Below are positions 3,745-61,807 of a stretch of DNA of 64,000 nucleotides, one piece after another. Below the pieces are notes generated by a model that saw only the letters and a program-made list of their open reading frames with translations, ran no database searches and was not told the origin of the DNA. How positions within the stretch are numbered: the first letter of the stretch is position 1; every line of letters starts with the position of its first letter. The position numbers and the translations under genes are program-made. This DNA comes from Tachypleus tridentatus (lineage: Eukaryota > Arthropoda > Merostomata > Xiphosura > Limulidae). Where the stretch lies: positions 53,002,107 to 53,066,106 of the forward strand of contig NC_134829.1 of assembly GCF_004210375.1 (NCBI RefSeq), written 5' to 3'.

Positions 3745-4346
3745 ATGAACTCCAATAAGGTAGACAAACAATATAGATTATTGTTGTGGAGTGTATGTGA
3801 TAGATGGTACATTAGTCTTCGTATTTCATGTTTATATAGAATGACCACTGAAAGACTTTGTAAAGGATGATTTGATTAGTATAAAAGTGTGAATATTTCA
3901 GTGAAACAATTTAAAATTTTAATTTAAATAAATGTAATCAAAATTGCAACATCACTTGGACAAGAATATTTTGTAAACCTGAAAAGTATATTCCAGTAGT
4001 AAGTATTATTAAGATAAATAAGGTATTGTATTATTGTCTGTTCCACAACCAGGTTCTTACAGTCTTCTCTCTCAGTCTTCTGCTGCTTTCAGCTGTTGCT
4101 GTAGACAAACAAGACGGTGACAAAGCTTATGACCTAAAAGGTGAAGCTACAGGATATGGTGGAGGTGGATATGGTGGCGGTGGCTATGGTGGAGGATATG
4201 GTGTTGGCGGCTTTGGTGGAGGATATGGTGGTGGAGGAGGAGTTGTTCTTGCTTTACCTATTACCTTAGGATATGGTGCTGGTGGAGGAGGAGGCTTTTT
4301 TGGTGGACGGGGAGGATACGGTGGTGGAGGTGGCAAATGGTGGTAA
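3745..4346 (+). CDS. Secreted glycine/tyrosine-rich protein, gene 1 (spliced)
   Basis: Predicted as two coding exons. Exon 1 (3745-3759) encodes only MNSNK and ends at AAG|GTAGAC. Exon 2 (4053-4346) follows the acceptor CACAACCAG. The intron is 293 bp, phase 0. The protein is 102 residues: signal peptide MNSNKVLTVFSLSLLLLSAV (roughly 1-21), acidic linker DKQDGDKAYDLKGEATG, Gly/Tyr repeats (GGGGY, GGGYG), hydrophobic core VVLALPITLG, a second Gly-rich part with a GGRGGY motif, and the C-terminus GGGGGKWW. A continuous ORF runs into exon 2 from the intron, but the spliced start supplies the charged N-terminus a signal peptide needs. No enzymatic motif is present. Secreted antimicrobial, cuticular, silk-like or adhesive roles are all possible. 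The exact family is not recognised; the secreted Gly-rich nature is clear. Confidence 0.85.
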
Positions 4347-4499
4347 ATAAGGTGAGACAGATAACTTTAAGTTCATCTGTGTTAGAAAGTTAAACAACAT
4401 ACGTTTGTTAATGTTATGACTGTATCAACATATATGTAAGTTTCTGTTCCAGTGTTACTTTTTGTTATATTCTTAAATCCATGGTTGTATTTTTTGTAG

Positions 4500-4655
4500 G
4501 ACTTATGACACTGATGTGGTATTCAGGGAGAATTATGGACTTCCTATTCGAATAATTTATTAAACTGACACAAAGTAACAGACGAAACACGAGCGACCAT
4601 GTTGTCAACTTCAATGTGTTATAAATATAAATAAATTTGAGTTGTGAATTTAATT
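4500..4655 (+). other. Non-coding exon 3 and poly(A) signal of gene 1
   Basis: Five bases after the TAA stop, exon 2 meets the donor TAAG|GTGAGA (GT at 4352). A pyrimidine-rich tract and TTTTTGTAG acceptor end at 4499, giving a 148-bp intron in the 3' UTR. The exon has AATAAA at 4630-4635. The same donor, acceptor and exon start (GACTTAT) recur in genes 2 and 3. Its 3' end is estimated. Confidence 0.7.
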
Positions 4656-4689
4656 TTCTCAGGTCTCAATTTGTATGTGTGTGTGTGGG

Positions 4690-4806
4690 GGAAGTGTATT
4701 CTTATGGTAAAGTCACATTGGGCTATCTGCTATATACACCGAGGTGAATCGAATCCTTGATTTTAGGGCTGGATATCCATAGACTATCTACTGTCCCAGC
4801 AAGGGA
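4690..4806 (-). repeat. SINE2 copy
   Basis: Minus-strand copy of the shorter tRNA-like SINE. Features are the GCCCATTGTG tail segment, the B-box-like GGTTCGATTC and the CTGGGACAG head. It is shared with copy 2 at 13502, so it predates the duplication. Confidence 0.7.
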
Positions 4807-5149
4807 CATCTCAATTTATTACAAGATACTAAACTAATCTCACTGTACACTGAAGATAATAGTAATACATTTACTTACTTAACAAAACTAAAACTTTGTT
4901 TACAAAAATAAACTTTGAACACTCTAAGATCCTGCTTTAAATTTCCCTTCATATGGTCATATAAAGATAATTATTAGTCTTACCAATAATAATGCAAGTA
5001 TCACTCTACGTTTATACACGAATTACATTCCACGATCTTCAGGTCTATTCAATATTTATCATTGAATAGATATTTAAAAACAACTTCAATGTTAAAGGCA
5101 CGATAAATGTTAGAAAAATTACTGATTTACATCTATAGTTTAAGGTTTG
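4807..5149. other. Non-coding spacer
   Basis: A+T-rich DNA downstream of gene 1. No gene or recognisable repeat is seen. Confidence 0.5.
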
Positions 5150-5419
5150 TGTGTTTTTGAATTTCACCCAAAGCTACACGATGGCTATCTAGTAGCCGCC
5201 CGTAATTTAGGATGGTAAGATTAAAGGAAAGGCAGGTAGTCATTACTACTCACCGTCAATTCTTGGGATACTCTTTTACTGAGGAATAGTGGGACTGATT
5301 GTTAGTTCATAACGCTCCCACGGCGGGAAGGGCGAGCATGTTTGATGTGGGGTGTATTTGAACCTGCAACTCTAAGATTACGACTCGAGTGTCGAAACCT
5401 CCTGGCCATGACTGGCCGA
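5150..5419 (-). repeat. SINE1 copy
   Basis: Near full-length minus-strand copy. It runs from the tail (AAAGCTACACGA) through the body (TTGGGATACTCTTTTACTGA, AAGGGCGAGCATGTTTG) to the tRNA-like head ending in GGCCATGACTGGCC. The duplicate is at 13970-14234. Confidence 0.85.
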
Positions 5420-5574
5420 AATAGTTAAATAACAGTTTTAAACTCCCGTGAACTATTCGCCGCCATTTTAGTTATTATTGGTTTTACCACTAAGTGAAGG
5501 ATCCTAGAGCGTTTTTAGAAATAAGTTAGTATACAAAACACATAAAGTAACAGACTCTGGTGGAAATCGAATAT

Positions 5575-5840
5575 TTGATTTCGAATATCACGTGAGATAC
5601 ACGAGGACCATCTGCGCCAGCCGTTCCAAACTTAAGAATGAAAAACGTAGATAAAAAGCGACTAGTTATCACTGTCTACTGCCAATTCTCGGATATTTTA
5701 CGAACTACATGTCGTAGGAAATGTAGGGTAGCATTTTATAGCTAACACCGCTAAAAGGGCAAACAGATTTGATGTAACGTAGATTTGAACTTTCGACTTA
5801 ACAATTTCGAATCAATAACCCTAAGGAGCAGTTCTTACTA
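5575..5840 (-). repeat. Degenerate SINE1 copy
   Basis: An older minus-strand copy, recognisable from the body blocks (AAAAGGGCAAACAGATTTGAT, CCAATTCTCGGATA) and a decayed head. The duplicate is at 14395-14650. Confidence 0.55.
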
Positions 5841-6333
5841 AGCCTACAAATGCTACTCCCTGTAAGTAGACTAAATTAGGAAGACTCAAGAATTTAAGAA
5901 ATAAATTTCGATTTGTTTCGCTGATGTACATTCGTTTCTGGGGCACCAAACATATCTTTCTGAAACTGACCACAAAAAACACAGGTGAAAATACATATTA
6001 AATATGTTGAGACACTTATAAAATCTGACCTAAATGTTGTGCTCATCATAAGTGAGGAAAACCCTTGTGGAAGTTCAGTACTGAAGAAGACGTAAATATT
6101 TCGAATACGTCAAGTCAATATTGGTAGAAACTTTAAGAGTTGGCTAAACATTCGGTATCCATTCTAGCCACAAGAAATCAAAATAAACGAATTCTTAACT
6201 GTATAAGCTAATCAAGTGTTCTGGGAAATTTTGTTTGTAATAGCTTTAAAATTAATTACTTAGACGAGGGATGAAACACCAAATAAAAATTCTTGCTCTT
6301 GAAAGTAAATTATTTGAATATGTAAAATACATC

Positions 6334-6525
6334 GAAATAATATGTGATAAATCACCAAATGATGACGCAAGCAATGGTTACTGAGATTAGAAATATTATA
6401 TGATAAATCACCAAATAAGGACGGAAACAATGGTTAGTGAATGTAGAAATAATGTATGATAAATCACCAAATGACGACCCACGCAATAGTTACTAATGTT
6501 ATAAATAACACATGATATATCACAT
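6334..6525. repeat. 57-bp tandem repeat, about 3 units
   Basis: Three diverged units contain GATAAATCACCAAAT followed by CAATGGTTA. The same three units are in copy 2 at 15155-15345. Confidence 0.8.
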
Positions 6526-6870
6526 TGTACTTAGAAATAATATATTTAATCACTAGAAACTATATTTTCTCTTGATAAGTTAGTAATTGAAATTTTTTAG
6601 TATAATAACTTGTATATCCAATAATATTTACTGCTGGCTGAGAAGCTGTTTTGTAAATATTTTTTCCTACACATGGAACGGACCATGTATACATTATCTG
6701 GAGTGGGAAGTCGAGACCTCGATTTGACGATTACAAACGTATAAGGTTATATTTTACCTCTAAAACACAAATTAATAATTAATTTTAATTATTGTCTTCT
6801 CAAATCATTTCATCTGTCTTAAAATTGGATAACTTTTAATTAACTATGAGTTTTAAATCCATTTTGTTTA

Positions 6871-6934
6871 TTTAGTTTATGTGTGTTAATCCAAAGTTTT
6901 ATGTCTTGCTAGTAATTAACACACATAAACTAAA
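6871..6934. repeat. Perfect 20-bp inverted repeat (hairpin)
   Basis: TTTAGTTTATGTGTGTTAAT at 6871-6890 is exactly complementary to 6915-6934, with a 24-base loop. It is intact in copy 2 at 15687-15706 and 15731-15750. It could form a cruciform or an RNA hairpin. No terminator role is supported. Confidence 0.85.
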
Positions 6935-7612
6935 ACTGTTCCTGTGATGTACAAAACTCAGTGTTATTGGCATGTGAAAACATACGAGTTTTTTACAGGC
7001 ACCTGAGTCTATCCACAATGAATTAAAATATGTTACACATCTTGACTCAGAGCATTTAATTTAAAGATCATTTAATTAGACTAAGTGCCCTGTTATATGA
7101 AAGTTAAAAGCTGTTTATCTATTGGAATACATTGTGTGATATCTATGGTTGAAACGTTTGACCAAGTTTATCTGGCATCGTCAGTTACATCAACCTTGTG
7201 AAACGTTGTACCCATAAACATTATGCTTTTTTATATCGAGAAAAAAACACGTTTTAAATAAGACAAATGTATTAATATGTAAAAAAGTAACAATGTATTT
7301 TTCTTGCTATAGAAGAGATGTTAAGTAAATGTAAATATATGGTCAATACTGTTAGTTTCATCCCTAGTTTAGTGATAGTGAAAGTTTTATGTATAAAACT
7401 AGACTGCATGTGGAATCCTTTTCCCTGCTAATTTAGTTTTAAGTCCTGATTACAGTATGTAACAAAAATTTTACGTTTAATTCTATGTGGACAGAAAATG
7501 TTATATCCCAATTTTTTATGCCTAAAATGAATTAAAAAGACTTATTTTTCTCTTGAAATTTGCTTTTGTGATCTGGGAAATGAAATTTTCAAATTCACCC
7601 ATTTTTCAGAAC
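6935..7612. other. Non-coding duplicated DNA
   Basis: A+T-rich, shared with copy 2 up to AGAACATT at 7612/16433. No coding exon is seen. Confidence 0.5.
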
Positions 7613-8331: not shown

Positions 8332-8429
8332 TTAGAATAAACTAGATCCCAGACGTTATGTAGATTATTTTGTTCATTCCGAATCACGAACAAGATAATT
8401 CTATTCTGCTTGTTTCAATTACTTGGGTG

Positions 8430-8871: not shown

Positions 8872-8874
8872 TAA

Positions 8875-9095
8875 ACCAATATACTTGTATGAATTAAATT
8901 ACAAAATTTAATATGAAAAGAAACGAACAAAATAGTTATTACTAAAACTATAATTAATATATTGAGAGTACGAATATAATATAATTAATTATAAAAATGA
9001 ATGAAATTAGTAATTTCTTTTCGGCTTTTGTGGGATAATCTGAGCAGATAATAAAAAACTAATACCATTTTATGATTCAATGTACTTTCCCTATA
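8875..9095. other. A+T-rich spacer between duplication copies
   Basis: No gene or repeat is recognised. Homology with window base 1 begins at 9096. Confidence 0.5.
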
Positions 9096-9551
9096 CAAAC
9101 AACTGTTACTTTCAAGTCAGCGAAAACTATGCAGAGCGGTGATATATAATTTAAGAGAAAGATGTCACTAGAAAATAAATTGACAGTGTTGTTAAATTCG
9201 ATCGAAAGCATGTAAACTAAACGTGTTGAAATTAACAGTGTTGTATATAATACAAGTAACCCAAGACACATCTTATATCGTAACGCACCACGTGTTAATA
9301 CGGAATAAATGAAAAATCATTGTCGACTGCGGGTTGATGAATTACGTGGTAAACAACAACCGTGGTAAACTAAACCTTTTAAGTATCCATTTATTGTGAA
9401 ACACAAATTGTGGAAAGGTGAAAATAGAATTGGTTTGTCTGTGTCTCCCAGTAGCGCAAATGTATGTTTCTGGAATTATAATACCAGAAAACCGGGTTTA
9501 GATACCCATTGTGTATTTTAGGACTTCATTACAAGAACATCTCTTAGTATT

Positions 9552-12533: not shown

Positions 12534-12541
12534 TATATATA
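12534..12541 (+). promoter_or_regulatory. TATA box of gene 2
   Basis: TATATATA lies 59 bp before the ATG, in the same conserved block as gene 1. Confidence 0.75.
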
Positions 12542-12592: not shown

Positions 12593-13164
12593 ATGAACTC
12601 CAATAAGGTAGACAAACAATATAGATTATTGTTGTAGAGTGTATGTGATAGACGGTACACTAGTCTTCGTATTTCATGTTTATATAGAATGAACATTGAA
12701 AGACTTTGTAAAGGATGATTTGATTAGTATAAAAGTGTGAATATTTCAGTGAAACAATTTAAAATTTTAATTTAAATAAATGTAATCAAAATTGCAACAT
12801 CACTTGGACAAGAATATTTTGTAAACCTGAAAAGTATATTTCAGTAGTAAGTATTATTAAGATAAATAAGGTATTGTATTATTGTCTGTTCCACAACCAG
12901 GTTCTTACAGTCTTCTCTCTCAGTCTTCTGCTGCTTTCAGCTGTTGCTGTAGACAAACAAGACGGTGACAAAGCTTATGACCTAAAAGGTGAAGCAACAG
13001 GTTATGGTGGAGGTGGATATGGTGGCGGTGGCTATGGTGGAGGATATGGTGGTGGAGGAGGAGTTGTTCTTGCCATACCTATTACCTTAGGATATGGTGC
13101 TGGTGGAGGAAGCTTTTTTGGTGGACGGGGAGGATACGGTGGTGGAGGTGGCAAATGGTGGTAA
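12593..13164 (+). CDS. Secreted glycine/tyrosine-rich protein, gene 2 (spliced)
   Basis: Same structure as gene 1. Exon 1 (12593-12607) encodes MNSNK and ends at AAG|GTAGAC. Exon 2 (12901-13164) follows CACAACCAG. The phase-0 intron is again 293 bp. The protein is 92 residues: identical signal peptide and acidic linker, a shorter Gly/Tyr repeat region, core VVLAIPITLG, then GGGSFFGGRGGY and GGGGGKWW. Compared with gene 1 it has lost about ten residues of Gly repeat in-frame (one block near GVGGFGGGYG and two Gly before FFGG). The reading frame and splice signals are intact although the flanking DNA has drifted, which suggests a live gene. Confidence 0.85.
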
Positions 13165-13315
13165 ATAAGGTGAGACAGATAACTTTAGCTTCATCTGTGT
13201 TAGAAAGTTAAACAAAATACTTTGTTAATGTTATGACTGTATCAACATATATGTAAGTTTCTGTTTCTGTGATATTTTTGTTATATTCTTAAATCCATGG
13301 TTGTATTTTTTCTAG

Positions 13316-21317: not shown

Positions 21318-21325
21318 TATATATA
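21318..21325 (+). promoter_or_regulatory. TATA box of gene 3
   Basis: TATATATA 59 bp before the ATG. The block from here to the ATG is unchanged from genes 1 and 2. Confidence 0.75.
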
Positions 21326-21376: not shown

Positions 21377-22026
21377 ATGAACTCCAATAAGGTAAACAAA
21401 CAATACAGATTATTGTTGTGGAGTGTATGTGATAGACGTTACATTAGTCTTAGTGTTTCATGTTTATATAAAATGAACATTGAAAGACTTTGTAAAGGAC
21501 GATTTGATTATCATAAAAGTGTAAATATTTTAGTGAAAGAATTTAAAATTTCAATTGAAATAAATGTAATCAAAATTGCATGAAAGTTAATGAAAGTTAC
21601 AATATTATACGGAAAACAATATTTTGTAAACCTGAAAAGTATATTCCAGTAGTAAGTATTATTAAGATAAATAAGGTATTGTATTATTGTCTGTTCCACA
21701 ACCAGGTTCTTACAGTCTTCTCTCTCAGTCTTCTGCTGCTTTCAGCTGTTGCTGTAGACAAACAAGATGGTGACAAAGCTTATGACCTAAAAGGTGAAGC
21801 TACAGGATATGGTGGAGGTGGATATGGTGGCGTTGGCTATGGTGGAGGATATGGTGGCGGCGGCTATGGTGGAGGATATGGTATTGGCGGCTATGGTGGA
21901 GGGTATGGTGGTGGAGGAGGAATCCTTCTTGCCTTACCTATTAGCTTAGGATTTGGTGGTTTTGGTGGAAGAGGTGCATTTGGAGGACGGAGAGGATACG
22001 GTGGTGGAGGTGGAAAATGGTGGTAA
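21377..22026 (+). CDS. Secreted glycine/tyrosine-rich protein, gene 3 (spliced)
   Basis: Exon 1 (21377-21391) encodes MNSNK and ends at AAG|GTAAAC, a better donor than in genes 1 and 2. Exon 2 (21706-22026) follows CACAACCAG. The phase-0 intron is 314 bp. The protein is 111 residues, the longest of the three: same signal peptide and acidic linker, an expanded Gly/Tyr region (GGGYG and GGGGY blocks, GIGGYG), core ILLALPISLG, then FGGFGGRGAFGGRRGY and GGGGGKWW. The intron happens to be open in the frame of exon 2 back to 21580, so a naive call would give an unspliced 148-residue protein lacking a signal peptide. Conservation of exon 1, its promoter and both splice sites favours the spliced model. 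Confidence 0.86.
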
Positions 22027-22189
22027 CAAAGGTGAGACAGATAACTTTATAAAACTTTAGCTTCATCTGTGTTAGAAAGTTAAACAAGATACGTTTGTTA
22101 ATGTTATGACTGTATCAACATATATGTAAGTTTCTGTTCCAGTGTTACTTTTTGTTATATTTGTAAATCCATGGTTGTATTTTCTGTAG

Positions 22190-26480: not shown

Positions 26481-26489
26481 GTAAGTTAA

Positions 26490-28245
26490 ACTTTTCACGT
26501 AAAAAGTAGTTGACAGAATGAAGTAAACTTTTTCATATAAACAGGAAAGTTATCAAAGTGCAGTAAACTTTTCACATAAACAGGTAAGTTATCAAAGTGG
26601 AGTAAACACTTCATACAAACAAGTTGTCAAAGTGGAGTAAACTTTTCATATTAACAAGTTGTCAAAGTGGAGTAAACATTTCATATAAACAAGTTGTCAA
26701 AGTGGAGTAAACATTTCATATAAACAAGTTGTCAAAGTGGAACAAACACTTCATATAAACAGGTAAGTTGTCAAAGTGGAGTAAACTTTTCATATAAACA
26801 AGTTGTCAAAGTGGAGCAAACACTTCATATAAACAGGTAAGTTGTCAAAGTGGAGCAAACACTTCATAAAAACAAGTTGTCAAAGTGGAGTAAACTTTTC
26901 ATATTAACAAGTTGTCAAAGTGGAGTAAACATTTCATACAAACAAGTTGTCAAAGTGGAGTAAACATTTCATACAAACAAGTTGTCAAAGTGGAGTAAAC
27001 ATTTCATATAAACAAGTTGTCAAAGTGGAACAAACACTTCATATAAACAGGTAAGTTGTCAAGGTGGAGTAAACTTTTCATATAAACAAGTTGTCAAAGT
27101 GGAGTAAACACTTCATATAAACAAGTAAGTTGTCAAAGTGGAGCAAACACTTCATAAAAACAAGTTGTCAAAGTGGAGTAAACTTTTCATATTAACAAGT
27201 TGTCAAAGTGGAGTAAACATTTCATACAAACAAGTTGTCAAAGTGGAGTAAACTTTTCATATAAACAAGTTGTCAAGGTGGAGTAAACTTTTCATATAAA
27301 CAAGTTGTCAAAGTGGAACAAACACTTCATATAAACAGGTAAGTTGTCAAAGTGGAGTAAACTTTTCATATAAACAAGTTGTCAAAGTGGAGTAAACACT
27401 TCATATAAACAAGTAAGTTGTCAAAGTGGAGCAAACACTTCATATAAACAGGTAAGTTGTCAAAGTGGAGCAAACACTTCATAAAAACAAGTTGTCAAAG
27501 TGGAGTAAACTTTTCATATTAACAAGTTGTCAAAGTGGAGTAAACATTTCATACAAACAAGTTGTCAAAGTGGAGTAAACTTTTCATATAAACAAGTTGT
27601 CAAGGTGGAGTAAACTTTTCATATAAACAAGTTGTCAAAGTGGAACAAACACTTCATATAAACAGGTAAGTTGTCAAAGTGGAGTAAACTTTTCATATAA
27701 ACAAGTTGTCAAGGTGGAGTAAACTTTTCATATAAACAAGTTGTCAAAGTGGAACAAACACTTCATATAAACAGGTAAGTTGTCAAAGTGGAGTAAACTT
27801 TTCATATAAACAAGTTGTCAAAGTGGAGTAAACACTTCATATAAACAAGTAAGTTGTCAAAGTGGAGTAAACTTCTCATATAAACAGGTAAGTTGTCAAA
27901 GTGGAGTAAACTTTTCATATAAACAAGTTGTCAAAGTTTACTAAACACTTCATATAAACAAGTTGTCAAAGTGGAGTAAACACTTTATATAAACAGGTAA
28001 GTTGTCAAAGTAGAGTAAACACTTCATATAAACAGGCAAGTTGTCAAAGTTGAGTAAACACTTCATATAAACAAGTTGTCAAAGTGGAGTAAACACTTCA
28101 TATAAACAGGTAAGTTGTCAAAGTGGAGTAAACACTTTATATAAACAATTGTCAAAGTGGAGTAAACACTTCATATAAACAGGTAAGTTGTCAAAGTGGA
28201 GTAAACACTTCATATAAACAAGTTGTCAAAGTGGAGTAAACTTTT
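26490..28245. repeat. 35/39-bp minisatellite with embedded splice-donor motif
   Basis: About 1.75 kb of tandem units. The short unit is 35 bp: CAAGTTGTCAAAGTGGAGTA followed by AACATTTCATATAAA. The long unit has four extra bases, turning CAAGTTG into CAGGTAAGTTG. About a dozen long units carry CAGGTAAGT exactly, the ideal metazoan 5' splice site, and a few carry AAGTAAGT. Short and long units alternate in a partly higher-order pattern, for example the blocks around 26880-27120 and 27150-27420. Confidence 0.95.
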
Positions 28246-28547
28246 CAAAAAAGAGGGAAATTTTCGTTGTTTATCATTAAACAGAAAACTATGCAACAGA
28301 CCAACATATTATCTATGTTATGTCCACTGAGAGTATTAAAATCTGACTTTTAGGGTTATAAGCCCTTTTAGTTAGTGTCGGATCACGAGGGTGAGACTAA
28401 CAACTTATATTAAAGGTTTTGAACAGTATAAAAGGACTGTAGCAAAATTAATTGTATTTTAATGGAAAAATCGCGTCGTTCATACAACAGTAAATAGATG
28501 GTTACTTGGAAATCTTCCTTGAGGCCAAATAGAACTATACTTGATGT

Positions 28548-33044: not shown

Positions 33045-34004
33045 GACACCTTGCCTTCAAAACTGGCAGAAGTATTAAAAATTGTAGTGGAATGTGTGAA
33101 CTTTGTGTGAAATAGTGCCCTGAAGCACCGCATCTTCAAAGAGCTGTGTAATGAAATGGGCTCTGAATTCGAGGTACTTCTGTACCATTCTAACGTTCGA
33201 TAGTTATCCCGGGGAAAGGTGTTGAATCGTGTTTTTGCCATGCGTGTAGAATTAGCCCTGTTTTTTTGCGAGAAAGCAACATTGTCATGCTGATTGCTTC
33301 GAAAAATCTGAGTTCATTCTCATTTTGACGTACATGGCCGATATCTTCAATGGTCTCAATCATCTCAATCAACAGATGCAGGGCGGTGGAGTCAACATCA
33401 TCGAAGCGGAAGAAAACCTGAAGGTTTTTCAAAAAAAGCTACCATTATGGAAACGACGAACAGAGAATGATAACTTAGCAAACTTTCCCCTGATGGACGA
33501 CTGTGTGAGTAAGATCGAAGATGTGTCTGAAATCGGAGACATTTCTGTACCCGGGGAACTGAAGGAAGCAATTGCCATGCACTTAGATGAGCTCGTAAAG
33601 TCTCTCGACAGATACTTCCCACCAGAGAGTCATATCCAGCATGGGTGAAACAGCCATTCACGTTTAGTGTTGCGACAGCAGATGTCAATGATGAATACCT
33701 CGACGAAATCATTGAACTTCAGCAGAGCCAAGTTCAACAGTAACTTTTCAGAACAACAACGCTCTCGGCGTTTTGGTGTCACCAAATCGTAGCGTACCCT
33801 CTTATTACTAAGAAAGACCTTAAGATACTAACACCATTTGTTACAACGTATCTTTGCGAGCAATCCTTTACGTGAATGGTAGACATAAAAACGAAGAAAA
33901 GGAACAGACTTTGTTACGAAAATGATATGAGAGTGGCACTTGTCAAGGTGAAGCCACGTATTTCTGAACTTGTCTCTGAAAGGCAACAGCAAAAGTCACA
34001 TTGA
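33045..34004 (+). pseudogene. hAT transposase (ZBED5/GTF2IRD2-like type), broken
   Basis: Reading + across frames gives motifs in family order: NEMGSEFEVLLYHSNVR-LSR then GKVLNRVF (about 33150-33240), the longest open stretch YMADIFNGLNHLNQQMQ through FPLMDDCVSKIEDVS (33325-33648), then PFTFSVATADVNDEY. The hAT C-terminal dimerisation region follows, reading TTYLCEQSF, IKTKKRNRL and MRVALVKVKPRISELV (about 33840-34000). From memory this fits the zinc-finger BED domain-containing 5-like group of hAT transposases. The N-terminal BED finger is not visible, and several stops and frameshifts interrupt it, so it is dead. Confidence 0.8.
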
Positions 34005-34199: not shown

Positions 34200-35000
34200 T
34201 TCCGGGGTTTAGTACCTCCAACAAGGTTAAGAACGTCTGGTCTGGTTCAGTATTTCCAACAAGGTTAAGAACCACTGGTCTGGGTTAGTACCTCCAACAA
34301 GGTTAAGAACCACTGGCCTGGTTCAGTATTTCCAACAAGGTTAAGAACCACTGGTCTGGTTCAGTACCTCCAACAAGGTTAAGAACCACTGGTCTGGTTC
34401 AGTACTTCCAACAAGGTTAAGAACCACTGGTCTGGTTCAGTACCTCCAACAAGGTTAAGAACCACTGGTCTGGTTCAGTACCTCTAACAAGGTTAAGAAC
34501 CACTGGTCTGGTTCAGTACCTCCAACAAGGTTAAGAACCACTGGTCTGGTTCAGTACCTCCAACAAGGTTAAGAACCACTGGTCTGGTTCAGTACCTCCA
34601 ACAAGGTTAAGAACCACTGGTCTGGTTCAGTACTTCCAACAAGGTTAAGAACCACTGGTCTGGTTCAGTACCTTTAACAATGTTAAGAATTACTGGTCTG
34701 GTTCAGTACTTCCAACAAGGTTAAGAACCACTGGTCTGGTTCAGTACTTCCAACAAGGTTAAGAACCACTGGTCTGGTTCAGTACCTTCAACAATGTTAA
34801 GAATTACTGGTCTGGTTCAGTACTTCCAACAAGGTTAAGAACCACTGGTCTGGTTCAGTACTTCCAACAAGGTTAAAAACCACTGGTCTGGTTCAGTAAC
34901 CTCCAACAAGGTTAAGAATTACTGGTCTGGTTCAGTACTTCCAACAAGGTTAAGAACCACTGGTCTGGTTCAGTACTTCCAACAAGGTTAAGAACCATTG
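34200..35000. repeat. 38-bp minisatellite derived from the hAT right terminus
   Basis: About 20 units of GGTCTGGTTCAGTACCTCCA followed by ACAAGGTTAAGAACCACT. The AGGTTAAGAACCACTG part of each unit is the exact reverse complement of the left terminal inverted repeat at 32970. The array ends precisely at the right target duplication. So the terminus plus about 22 bp of subterminal sequence was amplified within the element. Confidence 0.93.
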
Positions 35001-37581: not shown

Positions 37582-37790
37582 TTTTTAACAGTGTAAGACT
37601 AGAGGGAAGGCAGCTAGTCATCACCACCTACCTCCAACTCTTGGGCTACTCTTTTACCAGTGGGATTTACCGTCAAATTATAACTCCCCCACGGCTGAAA
37701 GGGCGAGCATGTTTGGTGCGATGGGGATTCAAACTCACGACCCTCAGATTACAAGTCGAACGTCTTAACTCACCTGGCCATGCCGGGCCT
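37582..37790 (-). repeat. SINE1 copy, tail truncated
   Basis: Minus strand, from AACAGTGTAAGACTAGAGGG to GGCCATGCCGGGCC. The 123-residue ORF at 37530-37901 spans it and is incidental. Confidence 0.85.
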
Positions 37791-37799
37791 CAGGAGTTA

Positions 37800-38560
37800 T
37801 ATAAAACATATAATGTTTGCAGACGTTCAAGAATGGATGTATATTCAGCATGGACTACATCATCAGCTAACCCTAATACTCATGTTACTTATACTTTCTA
37901 GACTGATGTAAGGCATGTGAACAACGTTTCAGTAATATAAATAAAGAACCAAAAAGGATTGGTGATGAAACTAAAACCATCTGAATATCTGTCTTCGTTA
38001 CCTGTATCTTTGTATTATTTTATTTTTCATATCAACGGCTATCTTCAAAGTAGGTAACAACTGTCATTTCACCATTGTTATAATTAATTATAAGCTATTT
38101 TACACCTCTAGCAAATTTTGATTTTCATTACTTGCAATAGTTTCAAAATTCACAATTTTTATTTTTGTGTTTCTCGTTCTCTGTTTTCCGTCTTTGATTT
38201 TTTTTACCAATTAAGATGACGTATCACACTGGCAGTACCAGACAACAATATAAACCAGTTTGTTCAAATCTCAGAATACGTGTCAGTTTCTTATTAGGCC
38301 AACATTAAGTTTCCAAAGAGAAAATCACTTCACTAAACTTATTCCAGCTGCTGGTTTTATATTGTTACTCTCTGTACTACTGATAATATTACTAAATAAC
38401 GTATTGAAATAGGGTGATATAAATATATTAACTATGGAAAGTATGAGACATTTTTTGTTGTTTGTACTGCAAACTTTTGTGACGAGAAAATTCACGTGAG
38501 AAAATAAATAAAATTGAGACTTTATTTTCTGTTTCGTTTCAGGAAACGGAAACTTCCTTC
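37800..38560. other. Non-coding DNA upstream of gene 4
   Basis: A TATAAA lies at about 38249 but has no suitable start codon or donor after it. No other feature is recognised. Confidence 0.4.
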
Positions 38561-38567: not shown

Positions 38568-38575
38568 TATAAATA
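38568..38575 (+). promoter_or_regulatory. TATA box of gene 4
   Basis: TATAAATA lies 73 bp before the ATG. Gene 5 has the identical octamer 66 bp before its ATG, whereas genes 1-3 use TATATATA. Confidence 0.68.
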
Positions 38576-38640: not shown

Positions 38641-39423
38641 ATGATTCCACAGAAGGTAAGATATGTTTATCAGATATAAACAATACATATTTCTTTAACT
38701 TCTCAATACTACAAACGAAAGTCTTCGTTATTTCAGGAATAACATCAGTCTTACGATTAAATACCTGTTTTACACTATATGAAATATTCAACTACAATTT
38801 GGTGTAATTTCCTGGAGAAATGACAAACAAATTATATGAGAGGAGATTATTAAAAGATGTAAAACATATCTTAAGCTTTCTTTCAAAATATTGCTATAAT
38901 TCTATGATTGCATTTGAACACAGTTCAATCAATATAACTTGTAATAGGTTATAGTGGACACATAGGGTGAAAGTTGCAGATTTGTAACAGTTATGGAGCT
39001 TAGCAAATAAATCTCTGTTCGATTATTTTAGGAAGTTGTAATTTTAGTCCAGTTTTCCGACAGAAGCTTCTTCTATAGATGTAACATATCGATAACTGTG
39101 TTCTTTGTCTTCAGATCTTCGCTCTATTTTCTCTCAGTCTCCTGATGTTGACAGTTTGGGCGGAAGAGAATAACCAGGTAGCAGAGACGGAAGATCTGAA
39201 AGCGGAAGCTACAGGCTATGGTGGATATGCTGGAGGATTCGGAGGTGGATCCTATGGTGGTGGAGCAGTAACACTTCTCGCTATTCCAATTACTGTTGTT
39301 CCCGCTCGTGTCGTAGGAGTCGGGGGTTATGGTGACTTTGGAAGAATTGATGGTTTCGGTGGAGGAATTGGTGGTTTTGGTAGAGGTTATTATGGTGGTA
39401 AAATATATTACAAGAGATGGTAA
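38641..39423 (+). CDS. Secreted glycine-rich protein, gene 4 (diverged subfamily, spliced)
   Basis: Exon 1 (38641-38655) encodes MIPQK and ends at AAG|GTAAGA. Exon 2 (39115-39423) follows TTTGTCTTCAG. The phase-0 intron is 459 bp. The protein is 107 residues: signal peptide MIPQKIFALFSLSLLMLTVW then A (cleavage likely before EENNQ), acidic linker with EDLKAEATGYGG matching DLKGEATGYGG of genes 1-3, Gly-rich stretch (GGFGGGSYGGG), core TLLAIPITVV aligned with VVLALPITLG, Gly-rich second half (GGFGRGYYGG) and basic/aromatic end KIYYKRW. Without splicing, only an in-frame internal Met is available and the signal peptide is cut short. Exon layout, intron phase and domain order identify it as a paralogue. 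Its function is unknown. Confidence 0.82.
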
Positions 39424-40597: not shown

Positions 40598-40608
40598 CCG
40601 TTCATGTA

Positions 40609-40888
40609 GGCCCGGCATGGCCAAGCGTGTTAAGGCGTGCGACTCGTAATCTGAGGGTCGCGGGTTCGCATCCCCGTCGCGCCAAACATGCTCGCCCTTT
40701 CAGCCGTGGGGGCGTTATAAAGTGACGGTCAATCCCACTATTCGTTGGTGAAAGAGTAGCCCAAGAGTTGGCGGTGGGTGGTGATGACTAGCTGCCTTCC
40801 CTCTAGTCTTACACTGCTAAATTAGGGACGGCTAGCACAGATCGCCCTCGAGTAGCTTTGTGCGAAACTTAAAAAACAAACAAACAAA
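40609..40888 (+). repeat. Full-length SINE1 with target duplication (reference copy)
   Basis: Best-preserved copy in the window, 280 bp. The tRNA-like head starts GGCCCGGCATGGCC, with A-box AAGCGTGTTAAGGC and B-box GGTTCGCATCC. The anticodon-loop position reads CTCGTAA (CGT, threonine-like). The central body is AGCCGTGGGGGCGTTATAAA, then CCCACTATTCGTTGG, then GGTGGTGATGACTAGCTGCC. The tail is GCACAGATCGCCCTCGAGTA then GCTTTGTGCGAAA and (AAAC)n. The duplicated target CCGTTCATGTA is at 40598-40608 and 40889-40899. Mobilised by a LINE; no coding capacity. Confidence 0.95.
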
Positions 40889-40899
40889 CCGTTCATGTA

Positions 40900-42660: not shown

Positions 42661-42667
42661 TTAATGG

Positions 42668-43149: not shown

Positions 43150-43690
43150 ACAACATTTTCAGGAAGCGAGAAGGGTATGATGTACAACACAATTTAAGGA
43201 AAGGGATATGATGTACAACACACTTTAAGGAAAAGGATATGATGTACAACACACTTTAAAGAAAGGGTATGACGTACAACACACTTTAAGGAAAGGGATA
43301 TGACGTACAACACACTTCAAGATAAGGGTATGATGTACAACACACTTTAAGGAAAGGGATATGATGTACAACACAATTTAAAATAAGGGTATGATGTACA
43401 ACACACTTTAAGGAAAGGGATATGATGTACAACACACTTTAAGGAAAGGGATATGATGTACAATGCATTTTAAAGAAAGAGTATGACGTACAACACACTT
43501 CAAGGAAAGGGATATAACGTACAACACACTCTAAGATAAGGGTATGACGTACAACACACTTTAAGGAAAAGGATATGATGTACAACACACTTTAAGGAAA
43601 GGGATATGACGTACAACACACTCTAAGATAAGGATATGATGTACAACACACTTTAAGAGAAGGGTATGATGTACAACACACTTTCAGGAA
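43150..43690. repeat. 31-bp minisatellite, about 17 units
   Basis: Unit GGAAAGGGATATGATGTACA followed by ACACACTTTAA, with variants GATAAGG, GACGTAC and 30-bp units. Confidence 0.94.
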
Positions 43691-50518: not shown

Positions 50519-51212
50519 ATTCAAACTTAATGGTACTAGTGTTTTATCTTGTTCTTACATTAACCAGTGTCTGTGTGTTTTGTAACTTAATGGTACCAGT
50601 GTTTTATCTTGTTCTTACATTAACTAGTGTCTGTGTGTTCTGTAAACCTAATGGTACTAATGTTTTATTTTGTTCTTATATTAACTAGTATCTCTGTGTT
50701 CTGTAACTTAATGGTACTAATGTTTTATTTTGTTCTTATATTAACTAGTATTTCTGTGTTCTGTAACTTAATGGTACTAATGTTTTATTTTGTTCTTATA
50801 TTAACTAGTACCTCTTTGTTCTGTAACTTAATGGTACTAATGTTTTATGTTGTTCTTATATTAACTAGTATCTCTTTGTTCTGTAACTTAATGGTACTAA
50901 TGTTTTATGTTGTTCTTATATTAACTAGTATCTCTTTGTTCTGTAACTTAATGGTACTAATATTTTATCTTATTCTTATATTAACTAGTATCTCCTTGTT
51001 CTGTAACTTAATGGTATCAGTGCTTTATTTGGTTCTTACATTAACTAGTATCTCTGTGTTCTGTAACTTAATGGTACTAATGTTTTATCTTGTTCTTACA
51101 TTAACTAGTATCTCTGTGTTCTGTAACTTAATGGTACTAATGTTTTATCTTGTTCTTACATTAGCTAGTAACTCTGTGTTCTGTAACTTAATGGTACTAA
51201 TGTTTTATTACG
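50519..51212. repeat. 60-bp minisatellite, about 11.5 units, with a repetitive ORF
   Basis: Units begin CTGTAACTTAATGGTACTAA and continue TGTTTTATCTTGTTCTTACA then TTAACTAGTATCTCTGTGTT. Because 60 is a multiple of three, one + frame stays open from 50627 to 51241 (204 codons), reading 20-residue hydrophobic repeats (LMVLMFYLVLTLTSISVFCN). A one-base insertion in unit 3 splits this from an earlier ORF at 50380-50688. No signal peptide, promoter or splice context supports a gene. I treat the ORF as a by-product, though all-hydrophobic repeats are unusual. Confidence 0.93.
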
Positions 51213-51704
51213 TACGACTGCTGTGGAAATTGTTAGTGTGACCAAATTTCACTTTTTCTTCAGAATAATTAATAAAAAATAAATTGAACTTTTCACGTAA
51301 GCTATCATAAGAGACAGATAAATTATCAAATGTTAGTCTTTATAAGGAAATAACACGAGCTGCCAATAGCGTAGGAGCGGTATGTTGTATTTTTTAGATA
51401 TTGTTCAAATGATTTTAAGCAAAATCAGAAATGGTTTTCTGGAAGACGAGTGAAAGCAGTGTCTCAGAATAATTCAGATCTCAGAAAATCATAACGGATA
51501 TTCATTTAGTCATACTGGATAAGAGTTACGTTAATTTAATATATTTTGGGGATAAATGACTTGTATAAAATCTCTCAATAATATCACACTAGTGAATAAT
51601 GTTGTATGTTTTCATGAGACATTAGAGGTTTAGTTTGTAATAATAATATGAGTAACGAAACAAATCGAAAAACAGCCAGAGCTGAGAGTAGCATAAGATC
51701 AACC
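51213..51704. other. Non-coding spacer
   Basis: No gene or repeat is recognised. Confidence 0.4.
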
Positions 51705-52560
51705 ATATGAGAAGTAATATGTAATATGAGAAGTAATATGTAATATGAGAAGTAATATGTAATATGAGAAGTAATATGTAATGTGAGAACTAATACGTAA
51801 TATGAGAAGTAATATGTAATATGAGAAGTAATATGTAATATGAGAACTGATATGTAATATGAGAACCAATATGTAATATGAGAACTAATATGTAATATGA
51901 GAACTGATATGTAATATGAAAACCAATATGTAATATGAGAACTAATATGTAATATGAGAAGTAATATGTAATATGAGAAGTAATATGTAATATGTGAACT
52001 AACATGTAATATGAGAAGTAATATGTAATATGAGAACTAACATGTAATATGTGAAGTAATATGTAATATGAGAACTAATATGTAATATGAGAAGTAATAT
52101 GTAATATGAGAAGTAATATGTAATATGAGAACTAATATGTAATATGAGAACTAATATGTAATATGAGAAGTAATATGTAATATGAGAACTAATATGTAAT
52201 ATGAGAAGTAATATGTAATATGAGAACTAATATGTAATATGATAAGTAATATGTAATATGAGAAGTAATATGTAATATGTGAAGTAATATGTAATATGAG
52301 AACTAATATGTAATATGAGAAGTAATATGTAATATGAGAACTAATATGTAATATGAGAAGTAATATGTAATATGAGAAGTAATATGTAATATGAGAACTA
52401 ATATGTAATATGATAAGTAATATGTAATATGAGAAGTAATATGTAATATGAGAAGTAATATGTAATATGAGAACTAATATGTAATATGAGAAGTAATATG
52501 TAATGTGAAAACTAATATGTAATATGTGAACTAATATGTAATATGAGAACTAATATATAA
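51705..52560. repeat. 19-bp minisatellite, about 45 units
   Basis: Unit AATATGAGAAGTAATATGT, alternating with the G-to-C variant AATATGAGAACTAATATGT. No stop arises on the minus strand, giving a repetitive ORF at 51790-52005 with no other coding support. Confidence 0.95.
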
Positions 52561-52904
52561 TTTCATCAGCTTGAAAATTTTGATTATAGAAAGTTTTGAA
52601 TTTTGAAGTTTATTGAATTAGGCTTAGGTTACGTGTGGAACAAATTAATTTACCCTTTTTTTATAGTAACGGTTGGTTTCTTTGAGACTACTACCGAAGA
52701 AATTCAAGTCACTTATTTAACATATTGTCCAAGTCTAGTTTTTGTTTTATATGAGTCGGATTATAAATAAAAATCTTCGCCAAAAGTCTTTGAAAATATT
52801 AAGAAGTGAGTTTAATGTATTAATATAGGACAATATAATTAAGCAAAATATTATTTTTTCTTACCGATTAAATAGAAACGTACAAATTGACCTTTAGACC
52901 TTAT
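52561..52904. other. Non-coding spacer
   Basis: No gene or repeat is recognised. Confidence 0.4.
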
Positions 52905-56290: not shown

Positions 56291-56576
56291 CGAACAGAAA
56301 ATGAAAAATTTTCATAAGCCATTTATCCTAAAAACAAAACAACAACAAACTCTACATCCCTAATTCTACAGTTTTTCTTATTGTGTGTCCTTTACCCCGA
56401 AATTCCAAATAATATTTATATATATCTCATAATAATTTTAATTATCTTATCCAATTGTTTCCTTATGAAAGTTTATGGTTTGAATTATCTAATGAATATT
56501 TGAATTATATCTATTTCTTAGAATTGAACAACCTTTTTAATTCATTTCTCCACATCAGCATCAAAAGAATAAAGTA

Positions 56577-57015
56577 TTATACAATAGGATATCGAGCAGT
56601 ATCATACAGTAGGATATCGAGCAGTATCATACAATAGGATATCGAGCAGTATCATACAGTAGGATATCGAGCAGTATCATACAATAGGATATCGAGCAGT
56701 ATCATACAGTAGGATATCGAGCAGTATCATACAATAAGATATCGAGCAGTATCATACAATAGGATATCGAGCAGTATCATACAGTAGGATATCGAGCAGT
56801 ATCATAAAATAAGATATCGAGCAGTATCATACAATAGGATATCGAGCAATATCATACAATAAGATATCAAGCAGTGTCATAGAATAAGATATCGAGCAGT
56901 ATCATACAATAAGATATCAAGCAGTGTCATACAATAAGATATCGAGCAGCATCATACAATAAGATATCGAGTAGTATCATACAATAAGATATCGAGCAAT
57001 ATCATACAATAATAT
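56577..57015. repeat. 25-bp minisatellite, about 17 units
   Basis: Unit AGGATATCGAGCAGTATCAT followed by ACAAT, with A/G and C/T variants. Later units use AAGATATC. Confidence 0.94.
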
Positions 57016-57857
57016 ATCGCTGTCTATATATCCAGTAACACAGTAAACTAAAACAATCATGATAGTACAAGGAACTGAAATTAGTTAGTTTATTTTGAAA
57101 TTAGAATTTGGGTTAATTAAGGTGAGTGATTACTGGTTTAGTCGGAAAACAATTTTTGTGGAAACCTTATTAACGGTCGTGATACTATTAAATTAATACC
57201 TGTTGGTGATGATTGTTTGCCTTATTTATTGTATTACAACAAGCGAATTTATCATTATTACGAGACTTCTAATTTATTAGCAATCATATTATATAAATTA
57301 TGATTAGGACTAAGAAGAAACTGTTGTTTTCAAACAGTGAAAGACGTCCTTTGTGGAAATGTTTGACTTCCATTCTCAGTAAATACGTGTAACTGGAGAA
57401 GAAGATAGACAGGTTATTGTTAACATATTATTACATATTGCTACAATATAACAAAATCATAACTTGATTACTGTTTTATTGTTTTGTTATGTTAAGGATT
57501 TCGAGCAACAAAATAGTATTCCAAAGTATTTCACAAAAAGAAAACAAGTAACATAAATACATGGAGAATATATCAGTGTTCCCATAAATCTTCCACCGCT
57601 AAAAACTCGAGAATGTGTAACTCACTGATAATTGCTGTTTCCTTGCTGTTTGTTATATTCCTAATATGTATAGTGTATTGCATTATGGGCAAATATATAA
57701 TTATCAAAGTTTATATAATTAATGATATTACGAACACTTCTCTTTACAATAATACAAGATAACTCTGACAAGAATATTCATCAGCGTTGTAATGTCAACA
57801 ATAGTTACAGATCTTTATATTGTTGTCTTAGTTATTATGTTACAGATCTGATTTGTT
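57016..57857. other. Non-coding spacer
   Basis: No gene or repeat is recognised. Confidence 0.4.
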
Positions 57858-58132
57858 CAGGCATGGAATGACCAGGTGGGTTAAGGCGTTAGACTCCTAA
57901 TTTGAGGGTTGCGGGTTCGAATCCCTGTCGTATCAGACAAGTTCGCCCTTTCGCCCATGGAGGCGTTATAATGTGACGGTCAATCGCACTATTCGTTAGT
58001 AAAAGAGTAGCCCAAGAGTTGGCGGTGGGTGGTGATGACTAGCTGCCTTTTCTCTAGTCTTACAATACTAAAGTAGGGACGGCTAGCGCAGATAGCTCTC
58101 GTGTAGCTTTGCGCGAAATTCAAAAATAAACA
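57858..58132 (+). repeat. SINE1 copy
   Basis: Plus strand: AGGCATGGAATGACCAGGTG, GCGGGTTCGAATCCCTGTCG, to TTTGCGCGAAATTCAAAAAT. Confidence 0.88.
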
Positions 58133-58689
58133 AAACTGTTCTGTTCAACAAAAACAACAACGTGTCGAGCATGTCATAAAAATAACGTTCCAGAAAGATG
58201 AACACGTTTCTTTAGGTTGAGAATAATATATATATTTATTACAGCGGAGGATATGCTTGAGGTCCGACAACATTGGCTTCTATTAATTAAACTACACTAA
58301 CCTTACCCACTGAAGGATTGAGAACACATTGACCTTAGGATTGAGCTATCATAAAGAAATAAATATTCTATCAAACGAAGACTTTAATAATTAAATCGTA
58401 CAAACTGTCAAGAGTTTCGCTACAGTAGTTTAGGAGGAATAACCTGACTGTTTAAACTTTCTTCAGTTGATATTATAAACAGAAGTTATCTGTTTGTTTT
58501 GTTTTCTGTGAACTCTGAGAATAAACAACACAGAAACCACGACGGTTTTTTATCATACATGTTCGGGTAGTTTCAAACAATATAACTCATAATTAATTCT
58601 CTGTTGTGGCAGTTAAAAAGTACATGTTTTTTGTAAGTTCAACAAATTTATTATATATTCTAAGTATGTGCGTGTATGTAGTTAAACAA
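58133..58689. other. Non-coding spacer
   Basis: No gene or repeat is recognised. Confidence 0.4.
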
Positions 58690-59060
58690 TAACACTATGT
58701 AACACAAATTTTGTTTCTGGATAGTATGTGTTATTTCTTAATTGCCTGTGTTGTAAAAGTACAGAAAATGGCCATTATTCCCTTCAAACTCTACTTTTGT
58801 GACGTGGATAACGAAATTTAGAAATTAATCTATTTTATATGTAAAAACGGGCAAATTTGCACATTTTCACTTACATAATGTCTGAATAAAACAACATATG
58901 AATGAAGATTTACACGTATTTATACTAAAATTAAACAAAAATGAACAAAGATGTTTAGAAGTGAAGAGTTTTTCGAAATTTGTGACTGTAATGTAAATCA
59001 CGTATCAGCCCCCAAATATAGTCTCCCATCTTGATTTCGTTATACGGTCCCAGGTCACAA
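58690..59060 (-). pseudogene. C-terminal fragment of the transposon-associated multicopy protein plus tail
   Basis: Minus-strand reading from about 59060 gives GPYNEIKMGDYIWGLIRDLH then YSHKFRKTLHF and a stop, the same C-terminus as at 17757-18035. It is followed by the non-coding tail that matches 18069-18290 and 7613-7777. Two bases appear lost inside the RESDLHYS-equivalent motif. Upstream coding sequence is not recognisable, although an ORF continues to 59223. Confidence 0.7.
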
Positions 59061-59277
59061 GAGCAAAGTTTGAAGACAAAAATACGTCTTCTCTATTTAC
59101 TTTAGGCATAATCAATTGGGAAATAACACTTTCTGCCCAGGAACATGAAAAAGTAAAAAGTTTGTTACCCAGTGTAATTACAAGTGTCCGACTGCCAGCT
59201 ACTAAAACATCACACGATGCCATGAAGCATTATTTTAATTTTGTTTAATAAAAAATAAGATATCTTTAACATGGTAG

Positions 59278-59540
59278 TCCGGCATGGCCAGGTGGGTTAA
59301 GGCGTTCGACTCGTAACCTGATGGTTGAGGGTTACTATCCCCATCGCATCAAACATGCTCGCCCTTTAAGCTGTGGGGGCGTTATAATGAGACGGTCAAT
59401 CCCACTATTCGTTGGTGAAAGAATAGCCCAAAATTTGGAAGGGGATGGTGATGTGTAGTTGCCTTCCCTCTAGTCTTACACTGCTAAATTAGGGACGGCT
59501 AACGCAGATAGTCTTCGTGTAGCGAAATTAAAAAACAAAC
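59278..59540 (+). repeat. SINE1 copy
   Basis: Plus strand: TCCGGCATGGCCAGGTGGGT, CTGTGGGGGCGTTATAATGA, CTAAATTAGGGACGGCTAAC. The end of the tail is shortened. Confidence 0.88.
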
Positions 59541-59712
59541 AGAACTTTAACCTGCTATGAGTTTACATGAAGGCACTTAACTCGTTGTAACTGTGAGAAT
59601 ATACTTCTGTTTATTTCATTCATGTCATATTAATGTACAAATATTGAGGAAAATATCCATACTAAATAAATATAAGTGTATAGATTTTACTAAATTCGTA
59701 TTAACTAAGATG

Positions 59713-59965
59713 TCGGCCTGACATGACCAGGTGATTAGGCAGCTCGACTTACAATATGAGGGTCGCAGGTTCGAATCTCTGTCACAGCGAATATGCTCGC
59801 TCTTTAACCCGTGGAAAAACATTATTATGATACGGTCAATCCTACAATTCTTTGGTAAATAAGTAGCCCAAGAGTTGGCGGTGGATGGTGATGACTTTGC
59901 TAAATTAAGGACGGCTATCGCACATAGTCCTCGTGCAGCTTTACGTAAAATTGACAACAAGCAAA
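59713..59965 (+). repeat. SINE1 copy, diverged
   Basis: Plus strand: CGGCCTGACATGACCAGGTG, GCAGGTTCGAATCTCTGTCA, AGAGTTGGCGGTGGATGGTG. A deletion removes the CTGCCTTCCCTCTAG block. Confidence 0.82.
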
Positions 59966-60179
59966 TGAAACGAACATGTCTTCAAGGACAAACGTAAAGT
60001 CCAAATGTTAGTTTTTAGGTTTTATATCTTATCTTTCCCCCACGTAACCTTATTATGTCTATAAGTTAAAATAATGTGATTTTTCGAGAGCTACACTGAA
60101 GGATATCAGTATAACTAAGTTGTTCATAGAGTATTATAAACTAAAATCGAGATGAGAAAAAAATTCAATATATGTGTAC

Positions 60180-60310
60180 GCTTTCGCGTTTGTTTTTCTG
60201 TTAAACGCAAAGTTACACATTAGACTGACTGTGCTTTATCAACCACGGGCATTGAAATCCATTTTTAGCGTTATAATTCTTCAGATTTGCCGCTGTACCA
60301 CTGGAGGACT
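60180..60310 (-). repeat. SINE2 copy, degenerate
   Basis: Minus strand: AAACGCAAAGTTACACATTA, TTTTTAGCGTTATAATTCTT, ending GCCGCTGTACCACTGGAGGA. Confidence 0.6.
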
Positions 60311-61160
60311 TATGCATAAGTAAAACAAACATGAACCACAAGGAGGTTTCGCTGGTTTTCGTTTTCTTCGCATCAGTATCAATCACCTTTTGACAGGATT
60401 TAAATAAGTTCAACTTAAACTTCTGTTGATCTTAGGAAAACCTGACATGAAATAAAACATAGTATTCTCAATTATTCATCAAAAAATTATTCTATTTGTT
60501 ACAATAACTTTCGAAAAAATAAATTAAAATACTTTAAAATTAACTTTGTTTTTTCTGCTAAAAGACGAAAATTGGCTGTTGTTACAAACGAAAAGCTTTG
60601 TTAAAACGTTTCGTTTAGATAATGTTACGTACAAGACAGCACGAGTTTCATTACGCCGATATTAATAACTATTCTTATTTTCTATGAATGATATTCTGAG
60701 AACTTATATTCTAAAATAATATTATGCTTATAGAATAATAATTAATTACTTCCTTATTACGTTTACGCAATTTTTCACTTTTAATAATGTTCATCTTTGT
60801 CTGGAATCATTAACGAATTTCGTACACTTCTCAAACAGAACTATATACAGGAAGTTATTGTTACATCATTATAATAGTAACAAAAATAACAGTAAGTGTA
60901 AGACTGTACTTCACTAAAAATAAAGCACTATTAATTTGACTAGTCCTACTTTCAATACCTCAGTTAATATTGTCAATATTTTATATCATTTTTGTTTTAT
61001 AGCTATATCAAGAATTTGAAAAATAAAACAGACAGTACCTTTGTTAATGTAACGAGAATAACGTTTGTGTCTTTGGTCAGTTTTAAAGGTCACTGTTTTA
61101 AAGCACACACGTTTGGACTACTGATAAATTTAGGCTTGTGTAAAAACGCTTGGTTTCCAT
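60311..61160. other. Non-coding spacer upstream of pseudogene 5
   Basis: A+T-rich. No gene is recognised. Confidence 0.4.
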
Positions 61161-61168
61161 CAAGTCGG

Positions 61169-61176
61169 TATAAATA
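61169..61176 (+). promoter_or_regulatory. TATA box of gene 5
   Basis: TATAAATA, 66 bp before the ATG, identical to gene 4's box. The promoter looks intact although the coding region is not. Confidence 0.65.
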
Positions 61177-61234
61177 GGTTTTCTTGTGGTCCGTTTCTCA
61201 TCTGCCTCTGATTCAAAATTTCACCATCTCAACC

Positions 61235-61807
61235 ATGGTTTCTCAATACGTAAGGTGAATCTATGTTATACATACTGCATTTCTATTGCTTGGTTTCTAG
61301 TTTAAAATAAAACATTGGTTTATATTACTTGCTGGATATTACAAACTAATTCCAATTATATCACCTCACAGACCCTTTTGATTCAGTTTAAGTCCATATC
61401 TTGAGTATCTACTAATACTGTTTACTTTGTCTTCAGGTGTTCGTTGTGTTTTCTCTCTGTCTTCTGGTATTGACAGTTTGGGCTGATGAAAGTAAAGAAA
61501 CTGTAGGAACGAGGGATGAAGCTAAAGGATATGGTGGATATAGAGGTGGGGGATTCGGCTTAGAAAGATATGGTGGAGAAGTTGGGAGAAAGTGTATGAT
61601 GGTAGATTAGGAAGTGGAGTGAAAACATTTCTTATTTTTCCAGATAGTGTCGTTTCTATTCGTGTGGTAGAAATCAGTGGTAATGGTAAATTAGTGGTCT
61701 CGGTGAAAACAGTGGATTTAGTCGTTGTTGTAGATTCATTAGACTCAGTATTAGGTGAACTAGGTGGTTATAGTGGATTTGATCGATTCGGTATTTATGG
61801 TGGATAA
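61235..61807 (+). pseudogene. Secreted glycine-rich protein, gene 5 (frameshifted relative of gene 4)
   Basis: Exon 1 (61235-61249) encodes MVSQY and ends at TAC|GTAAGG. Exon 2 starts at 61437 after TTTGTCTTCAG. The phase-0 intron is 187 bp. The signal peptide (MVSQYVFVVFSLCLLVLTVW then A, followed by DESKE) and the linker DEAKGYGGYRGGG match gene 4. The frame then hits TAG at 61608-61610, giving about 62 residues. In the -1 frame from about 61592, homology resumes with VKTFLIFPDSVVSIRVVE against VTLLAIPITVVPARVVG of gene 4, and it ends GGYSGFDRFGIYGG plus stop at 61805-61807. A short part near 61695-61740 looks more Gly-rich in yet another frame, so more than one indel is likely. The Gly content has eroded compared with its paralogues. 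This is a decayed gene, unless an assembly error accounts for the shifts. Confidence 0.7.

Follow-up and report, generated by a model that had tools for sequence, protein, structure and literature searches.

A probable large family of small glycine-rich genes with a phase-0 split leader in the horseshoe crab Tachypleus tridentatus

In the 64,000-nt stretch from 53,002,107 to 53,066,106 on contig NC_134829.1 (C5 in what follows) of the horseshoe crab Tachypleus tridentatus (here called the window; all window coordinates count its first letter as position 1), we found four glycine-rich (Gly-rich) genes and what looks like a decayed fifth copy, in all of which a tiny first coding stretch is followed by a phase-0 intron. 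Searches of the 2.17-Gb assembly showed that these loci belong to a much wider set, and we consider it probable that they represent a large horseshoe-crab family of small secreted Gly-rich genes of structural or cuticle type, with a leader split in phase 0. Across the family, the smallness of the first coding exon and the phase of the intron are conserved and the number of codons is not. A preliminary description of the window had recognized one secreted Gly-rich family, which our analysis supports; however, it had counted five members, and we find at least 35 loci in the genome.

Anatomy of the five window loci

All five loci lie on the forward strand. In gene 1, a TATA box (3686..3693) is followed by a coding exon 1 that encodes MNSNK (3745..3759) and ends at the donor GTAGAC, by a 293-bp intron 1 (3760..4052) and by a coding exon 2 that includes the stop codon (4053..4346). 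Genes 2 and 3 have the same layout, with TATA boxes at 12534..12541 and 21318..21325, coding exons 1 that again encode MNSNK (12593..12607 and 21377..21391), introns of 293 bp (12608..12900) and 314 bp (21392..21705), and coding exons 2 through the stop at 12901..13164 and 21706..22026. In gene 4, the TATA box is at 38568..38575, coding exon 1 encodes MIPQK (38641..38655), intron 1 spans 459 bp (38656..39114) and coding exon 2 runs through the stop (39115..39423); its first 122 bp fall within a tract (39105-39236) similar to three loci outside the window, L016-L018. In copy 5, the TATA box (61169..61176) precedes a coding exon 1 that encodes MVSQY (61235..61249), a 187-bp intron 1 (61250..61436) and an exon 2 that reaches an early stop (61437..61610). 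The preliminary description was accurate in giving each locus a TATA box, an ATG with 15 coding nucleotides and a phase-0 intron with GT donor and AG acceptor, and in stating that exon 1 escapes a plain listing of open reading frames (ORFs). It also spoke of a micro-exon. Since the TATA box lies 59-73 bp before the ATG at all five loci, exon 1 must also hold a short 5' untranslated region (UTR), so the term, taken strictly, fits the tiny coding part and not the exon as a whole.

Genes 1-3 arose by tandem duplication: they follow one another at intervals of 8848 and 8784 bp, and the 300 bp surrounding exon 1 are 97-98% alike among them. They therefore count as about one observation and not as the independent evidence they were first taken for, with gene 4 and copy 5 as separate observations. 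The tandemly duplicated units that bear them, each about 8.8 kb long, occupy window positions 1-22300, with a spacing of 9095-9127 near the left end. In genes 1-4, the reading frames stay open up to conserved KWW or KRW ends, and comparison with near relatives shows changes mostly at the third codon position (0/0/2, 0/0/1 and 0/1/5). Copy 5, by its sequence, looks like a decayed copy and not the intact gene ending at 61807 that had been proposed: a TAG at 61608-61610 ends the frame before that point, and the first 35 codons differ from those of L017 by 19 nonsynonymous and 4 synonymous codon differences.

Just past the stop codons of genes 1-3 there is a likely 3'-UTR intron, at 4352..4499 in gene 1 (148 bp; AAG/GTGAGA to TAG/GAC, slashes marking the splice sites), at 13170..13315 in gene 2 (146 bp) and at 22032..22189 in gene 3 (158 bp). 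We rejected a longer C-terminus for these genes, in which a splice at TG/GTAA would remove the stop and add about 20 residues. In a fourth copy, the second gene of L037, the added stretch is different and ends prematurely, whereas the AAG/GTGAGA donor is kept in all four copies, and we therefore read the segment as a 3'-UTR intron of 146-158 bp.

The genome-wide family and its leader intron

We modelled 35 loci genome-wide, 30 outside the window and 5 inside, and the first intron is in phase 0 in every model. Family counts are lower bounds: a first query gave at least 36 matches at E 0.001 and a second at least 44 at E 0.01, with partial overlap between the two. Coding exon 1 measures 15 nt in 17 loci (including L009 and L010, whose two opening ATGs would also allow 12 nt), 12 nt in 13, 18 nt in two, 6 nt in two and 9 nt in one; for L026 and L029 the modelled donor, GTTTGT, is weak. 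A tree of 34 loci, excluding L036 because its start is broken (38 columns, with 9 of 19 inner branches open), implies at least five changes in exon-1 length. The 6-nt loci L034 and L035 (MK) group with the 15-nt MNSNK genes with support 93/82, and the 9-nt L013 (MRK) groups with 15-nt MFQKK genes with support 97/88; length changes occur even within the clade of the window genes themselves. The proposed constancy of length and phase therefore stands for phase, but an exon of exactly 15 bases gives way to lengths of 6, 9, 12, 15 and 18 nt. Similarly, the split itself looks old, as proposed, because it is common to loci that share 37-64% identity with gene 1 at the start of exon 2, but a fixed 15-nt length has not been kept.

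Some loci are near-identical copies. L016, L017 and L018 lie far apart on C5 (at 53.58, 53.07 and 53.65 Mb), and L022 and L023 likewise lie far apart on C2; both sets may be recent duplicates or duplicates of the assembly. We counted L016-L018 as one because of their near-identity.

Splicing of intron 1 at the window loci is likely, judging from the arrangement of sequence signals. In 17 of the 35 modelled loci, the exon-2 frame lacks an ATG over its whole length between stops; genes 1 and 2 are among them and so need an upstream start exon. We also applied a fixed rule (TATAWA, an ATG 45-120 bp downstream, 6-18 open bases and a donor score of at least 5) to the 1.5 kb upstream of exon 2 in 21 of the 35 loci (31.5 kb in all), leaving out near-copies as well as the two weak-donor models. 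The rule gave 22 phase-0, 2 phase-1 and 2 phase-2 matches, as compared to means of 1.02, 0.56 and 0.66 in a random control of 50 first-order sets and to 2, 4 and 0 on the antisense strand. Because the models were partly chosen by the same features, there is some circularity in the rule's finding 21 of 21 models again. In seven held-out loci, the preset rule found a phase-0 exon in four, one of which (L043) repeats the MKTR of L033. L041 and L044 yielded nothing by the preset rule and a 12-nt phase-0 exon each when the rules were relaxed. When gene 4 is aligned with L017, 11 of the 15 exon-1 bases are the same and identity reaches 94% over the opening 105 bases of exon 2, as compared to 44% for the promoter and 50% for the intron.

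Elsewhere in the same genome there are at least 150 matches to PF00379 (chitin_bind_4, CPR), many of them in arrays, with 150 of 299 candidates scored. In a control on 20 of these loci, the phase counts were 9:2:0 (several being near-copies) and 1:0:2 on the antisense strand. The open stretch before the R&R domain mostly has no clear signal peptide in these CPR loci, so a further upstream exon is likely there.

Protein make-up and rival explanations

The proteins share a plan of a hydrophobic start that resembles a signal peptide by its sequence, an acidic segment that ends in about (D/E)DL(K/Q/R)xEATGYGG, and a Gly-rich body. Glycine makes up 40, 36, 41 and 24% of genes 1-4, which places all four above the 20% Gly used to define glycine-rich proteins in a review (PMC11772090), and 18% of the truncated copy 5. 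Tyrosine accounts for 9-11% of the mature part. A short first coding exon with an intron in the signal-peptide code, which is common in CPR-type genes without defining them, is present in all 35 models (6-18 nt). On loci of C13, C2 and the 47-Mb region of C5, there is an additional Gly-rich exon downstream. The 11 loci read for it (L009, L015, L020-L022, L025, L026, L028 and L031-L033) usually have an AIPVSV-like opening and an LLAVPLSL-like block, with a WWD end in 6 of 11. The window genes hold LALPI or LAIPI and the KWW or KRW ends inside one exon, so a second intron was either lost or never gained there. We saw the (D/E)DLKxEATGYGG and LLAVPLSL blocks in the Tachypleus genome only, the comparison with other groups being by description.

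These features are consistent with a simple scheme. Transcription would be driven from the TATA promoter to give a first exon made of a 5' UTR and 2-6 codons, with the phase-0 intron splitting the signal-peptide code. Removal of the leader intron would join this exon to exon 2, which would supply the hydrophobic signal core, the acidic segment and the Gly-rich body, and the secreted proteins would assemble into an extracellular matrix, probably cuticle. The balance tips slightly towards a role in cuticle, a reading suggested by the Gly- and Tyr-rich make-up and by the match to insect cuticle-gene architecture.

Several observations weigh against a family of spliced cuticle-type genes. The held-out locus L046 has no in-frame exon 1 under either preset or relaxed rules, with only an 8-nt out-of-frame match. 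Genes 1-3 have weak donors (scores 5.3, 5.3 and 6.9), and in copy 5 an out-of-frame donor 5 nt downstream scores better than the one modelled (8.1 vs 5.4). An hmmscan of six family proteins gave no Pfam family above cut-off and no match to the R&R chitin-binding domain, PF00379; PF07172 (GRP) stayed below its 30-bit cut-off, at 19.2 for gene 4 and 22.7 for the L025 protein, and was unmatched in the other four. A search of the PDB gave two weak matches to Gly-rich stretches only, which we do not take as kin. In the seven proteins computed, the isoelectric point (pI) shifts from 4.1-4.6 in the acidic segment to 9.0-9.7 in the Gly-rich part, as would be expected if the proteins were instead precursors of glycine-rich antimicrobial peptides (acanthoscurrin-, ctenidin- or serrulin-like), cleaved near DLKxEATGYGG to release a basic mature peptide. 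We regard this as unlikely, though it deserves attention: the mature part of the same seven proteins has 5-7 Lys plus Arg in total and no Cys, no dibasic cleavage site is obvious by eye, and the gene layout is that described for cuticle genes in PMC1626468.

Two further readings concern the genes themselves. If much of the family, window copies included, consisted of decaying duplicates and not working genes, this would account for the broken frames in copy 5, L036 and the first copy in L037, and for the ends of L012, L014, L016 and L034, which are unlike those of their near-identical sisters; the open frames of genes 1-4 to their KWW or KRW ends and the excess of third-position changes make such general decay quite improbable. 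Translation could also start in exon 2 or read through the intron, with the upstream ATG exon a coincidence, and in genes 3 and 4 an in-frame ATG does occur, before the acceptor or among the first 20 codons of exon 2. However, the 17 of 35 frames without an ATG, and a phase-0 TATA-ATG-donor array found far more often than chance would give, leave this reading with hardly any probability.

Mosaic copies, neighbouring features and known systems

Gene 4 matches L016-L018 at 94.7% over 132 bp (39105-39236), starting 10 bp before the acceptor; within the Gly-rich part, another alignment of 166 columns gives no more than 75-76%. Copy 5, as compared to L017, matches at 77% in the promoter, 73% in exon 1 and 62% at the start of exon 2. 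Such a patchwork suggests either that the beginning of exon 2 was converted or that a 5' module was exchanged through intron 1. A duller alternative is that strong constraint on the exon-2 start explains the gene 4 pattern; however, 5 synonymous vs 1 nonsynonymous change in 35 codons fits badly with saturated flanks. For start-codon introns, Nielsen and Wernersson proposed that regulatory 5' modules are exchanged (PMC1626468), and we suggest, tentatively and with considerable doubt, that the phase-0 leader intron may let promoter, 5' UTR and first codons swap as one module between family members.

The window also contains tandem arrays at 26487-28247, 34206-34997, 43171-43690, 51705-52561 and 56573-57019, with periods of about 35, 38, 61, 19 and 25 bp. 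The repeat at 50524-51241 has 11.4 tandem copies of a 60-bp unit; the unit length is divisible by three and yields a 205-residue open frame, which is probably not a gene. Two dispersed repeat families, at about 40604-40890 and 37584-37812, have many copies both in the window and in most of the nearby loci that were compared, with identities of 70-92%. No Pfam match at E 0.1 was obtained for four other ORFs of the window. An open frame of 130 residues at 33256-33648 looks protein-like in composition but has no such match. An Rfam search at the gathering threshold gave no match, and no tRNAs were detected in a search made with the bacterial setting. Outside the window, C11 carries a gene for coagulogen, a horseshoe-crab marker: four neighbouring matches cover nearly the whole Pfam Coagulin model, which none of 14 control genomes matches. 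Two of its pieces agree with PDB 1aoc_A, which we take to be from Tachypleus tridentatus, at 48 of 51 and 48 of 48 aligned residues; in the former, all three differences fall in the first five aligned residues (perhaps an intron), and 46 identical residues follow in a row.

The layout of the family resembles that of insect cuticle genes described in PMC1626468, PMC2259329 and, for Drosophila CPR genes, PMC2793513. In both, a first coding exon of few codons is followed by a phase-0 intron within the signal-peptide code, the exons are usually few, the promoters have a TATA box, the genes form tandem arrays and the first exons are hard to annotate. In Drosophila cuticle genes, a phase-0 intron follows codon 4 (the position-5 peak; PMC1626468). 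In Anopheles, 86% of intron-bearing CPR genes have an intron in the signal-peptide code, their first coding exons measure 3-36 nt with a median and mode of 12, and the authors pointed out the annotation trouble that short first exons cause (PMC2259329). In contrast, the horseshoe-crab family has no R&R match in the six proteins scanned, belongs to another animal group and has a Gly-rich body. By description, the glycine-rich proteins of ticks and insect cuticle are alike in having at least 20% Gly, GGY-type repeats and, presumably, secretion, and acanthoscurrin, ctenidin and serrulin may be alike in having a signal peptide, a pro-segment and a Gly-rich region in a chelicerate (PMC11772090). 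The Drosophila Sgs glue genes also have a signal-peptide intron of fixed place and phase and a repeat-rich exon 2, with a 28-bp first coding exon in Sgs1, but their intron is in phase 1 and their repeats are rich in Pro and Ser (PMC10835880); we claim no relation. Because the layout has already been described for arthropod cuticle genes (PMC1626468, PMC2259329), it is not surprising in itself, and the family is a chelicerate case, without the R&R domain, of this short-first-exon layout. Among the papers listed by our searches, aimed at horseshoe-crab Gly-rich and cuticular genes in a literature that mostly leaves out subscription journals, none concerned this family. Horseshoe-crab cuticular proteins are reportedly the subject of work by Iijima et al. 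in 2005.

Taken together, these data provide a concrete gene-finding correction, as ORF calling misses the first exon of a large horseshoe-crab family, and they place in a chelicerate a short first exon of insect-cuticle type whose length drifts codon-wise at constant phase. If 5' modules were indeed exchanged between members, the family would offer a natural setting in which to test regulatory exon shuffling.

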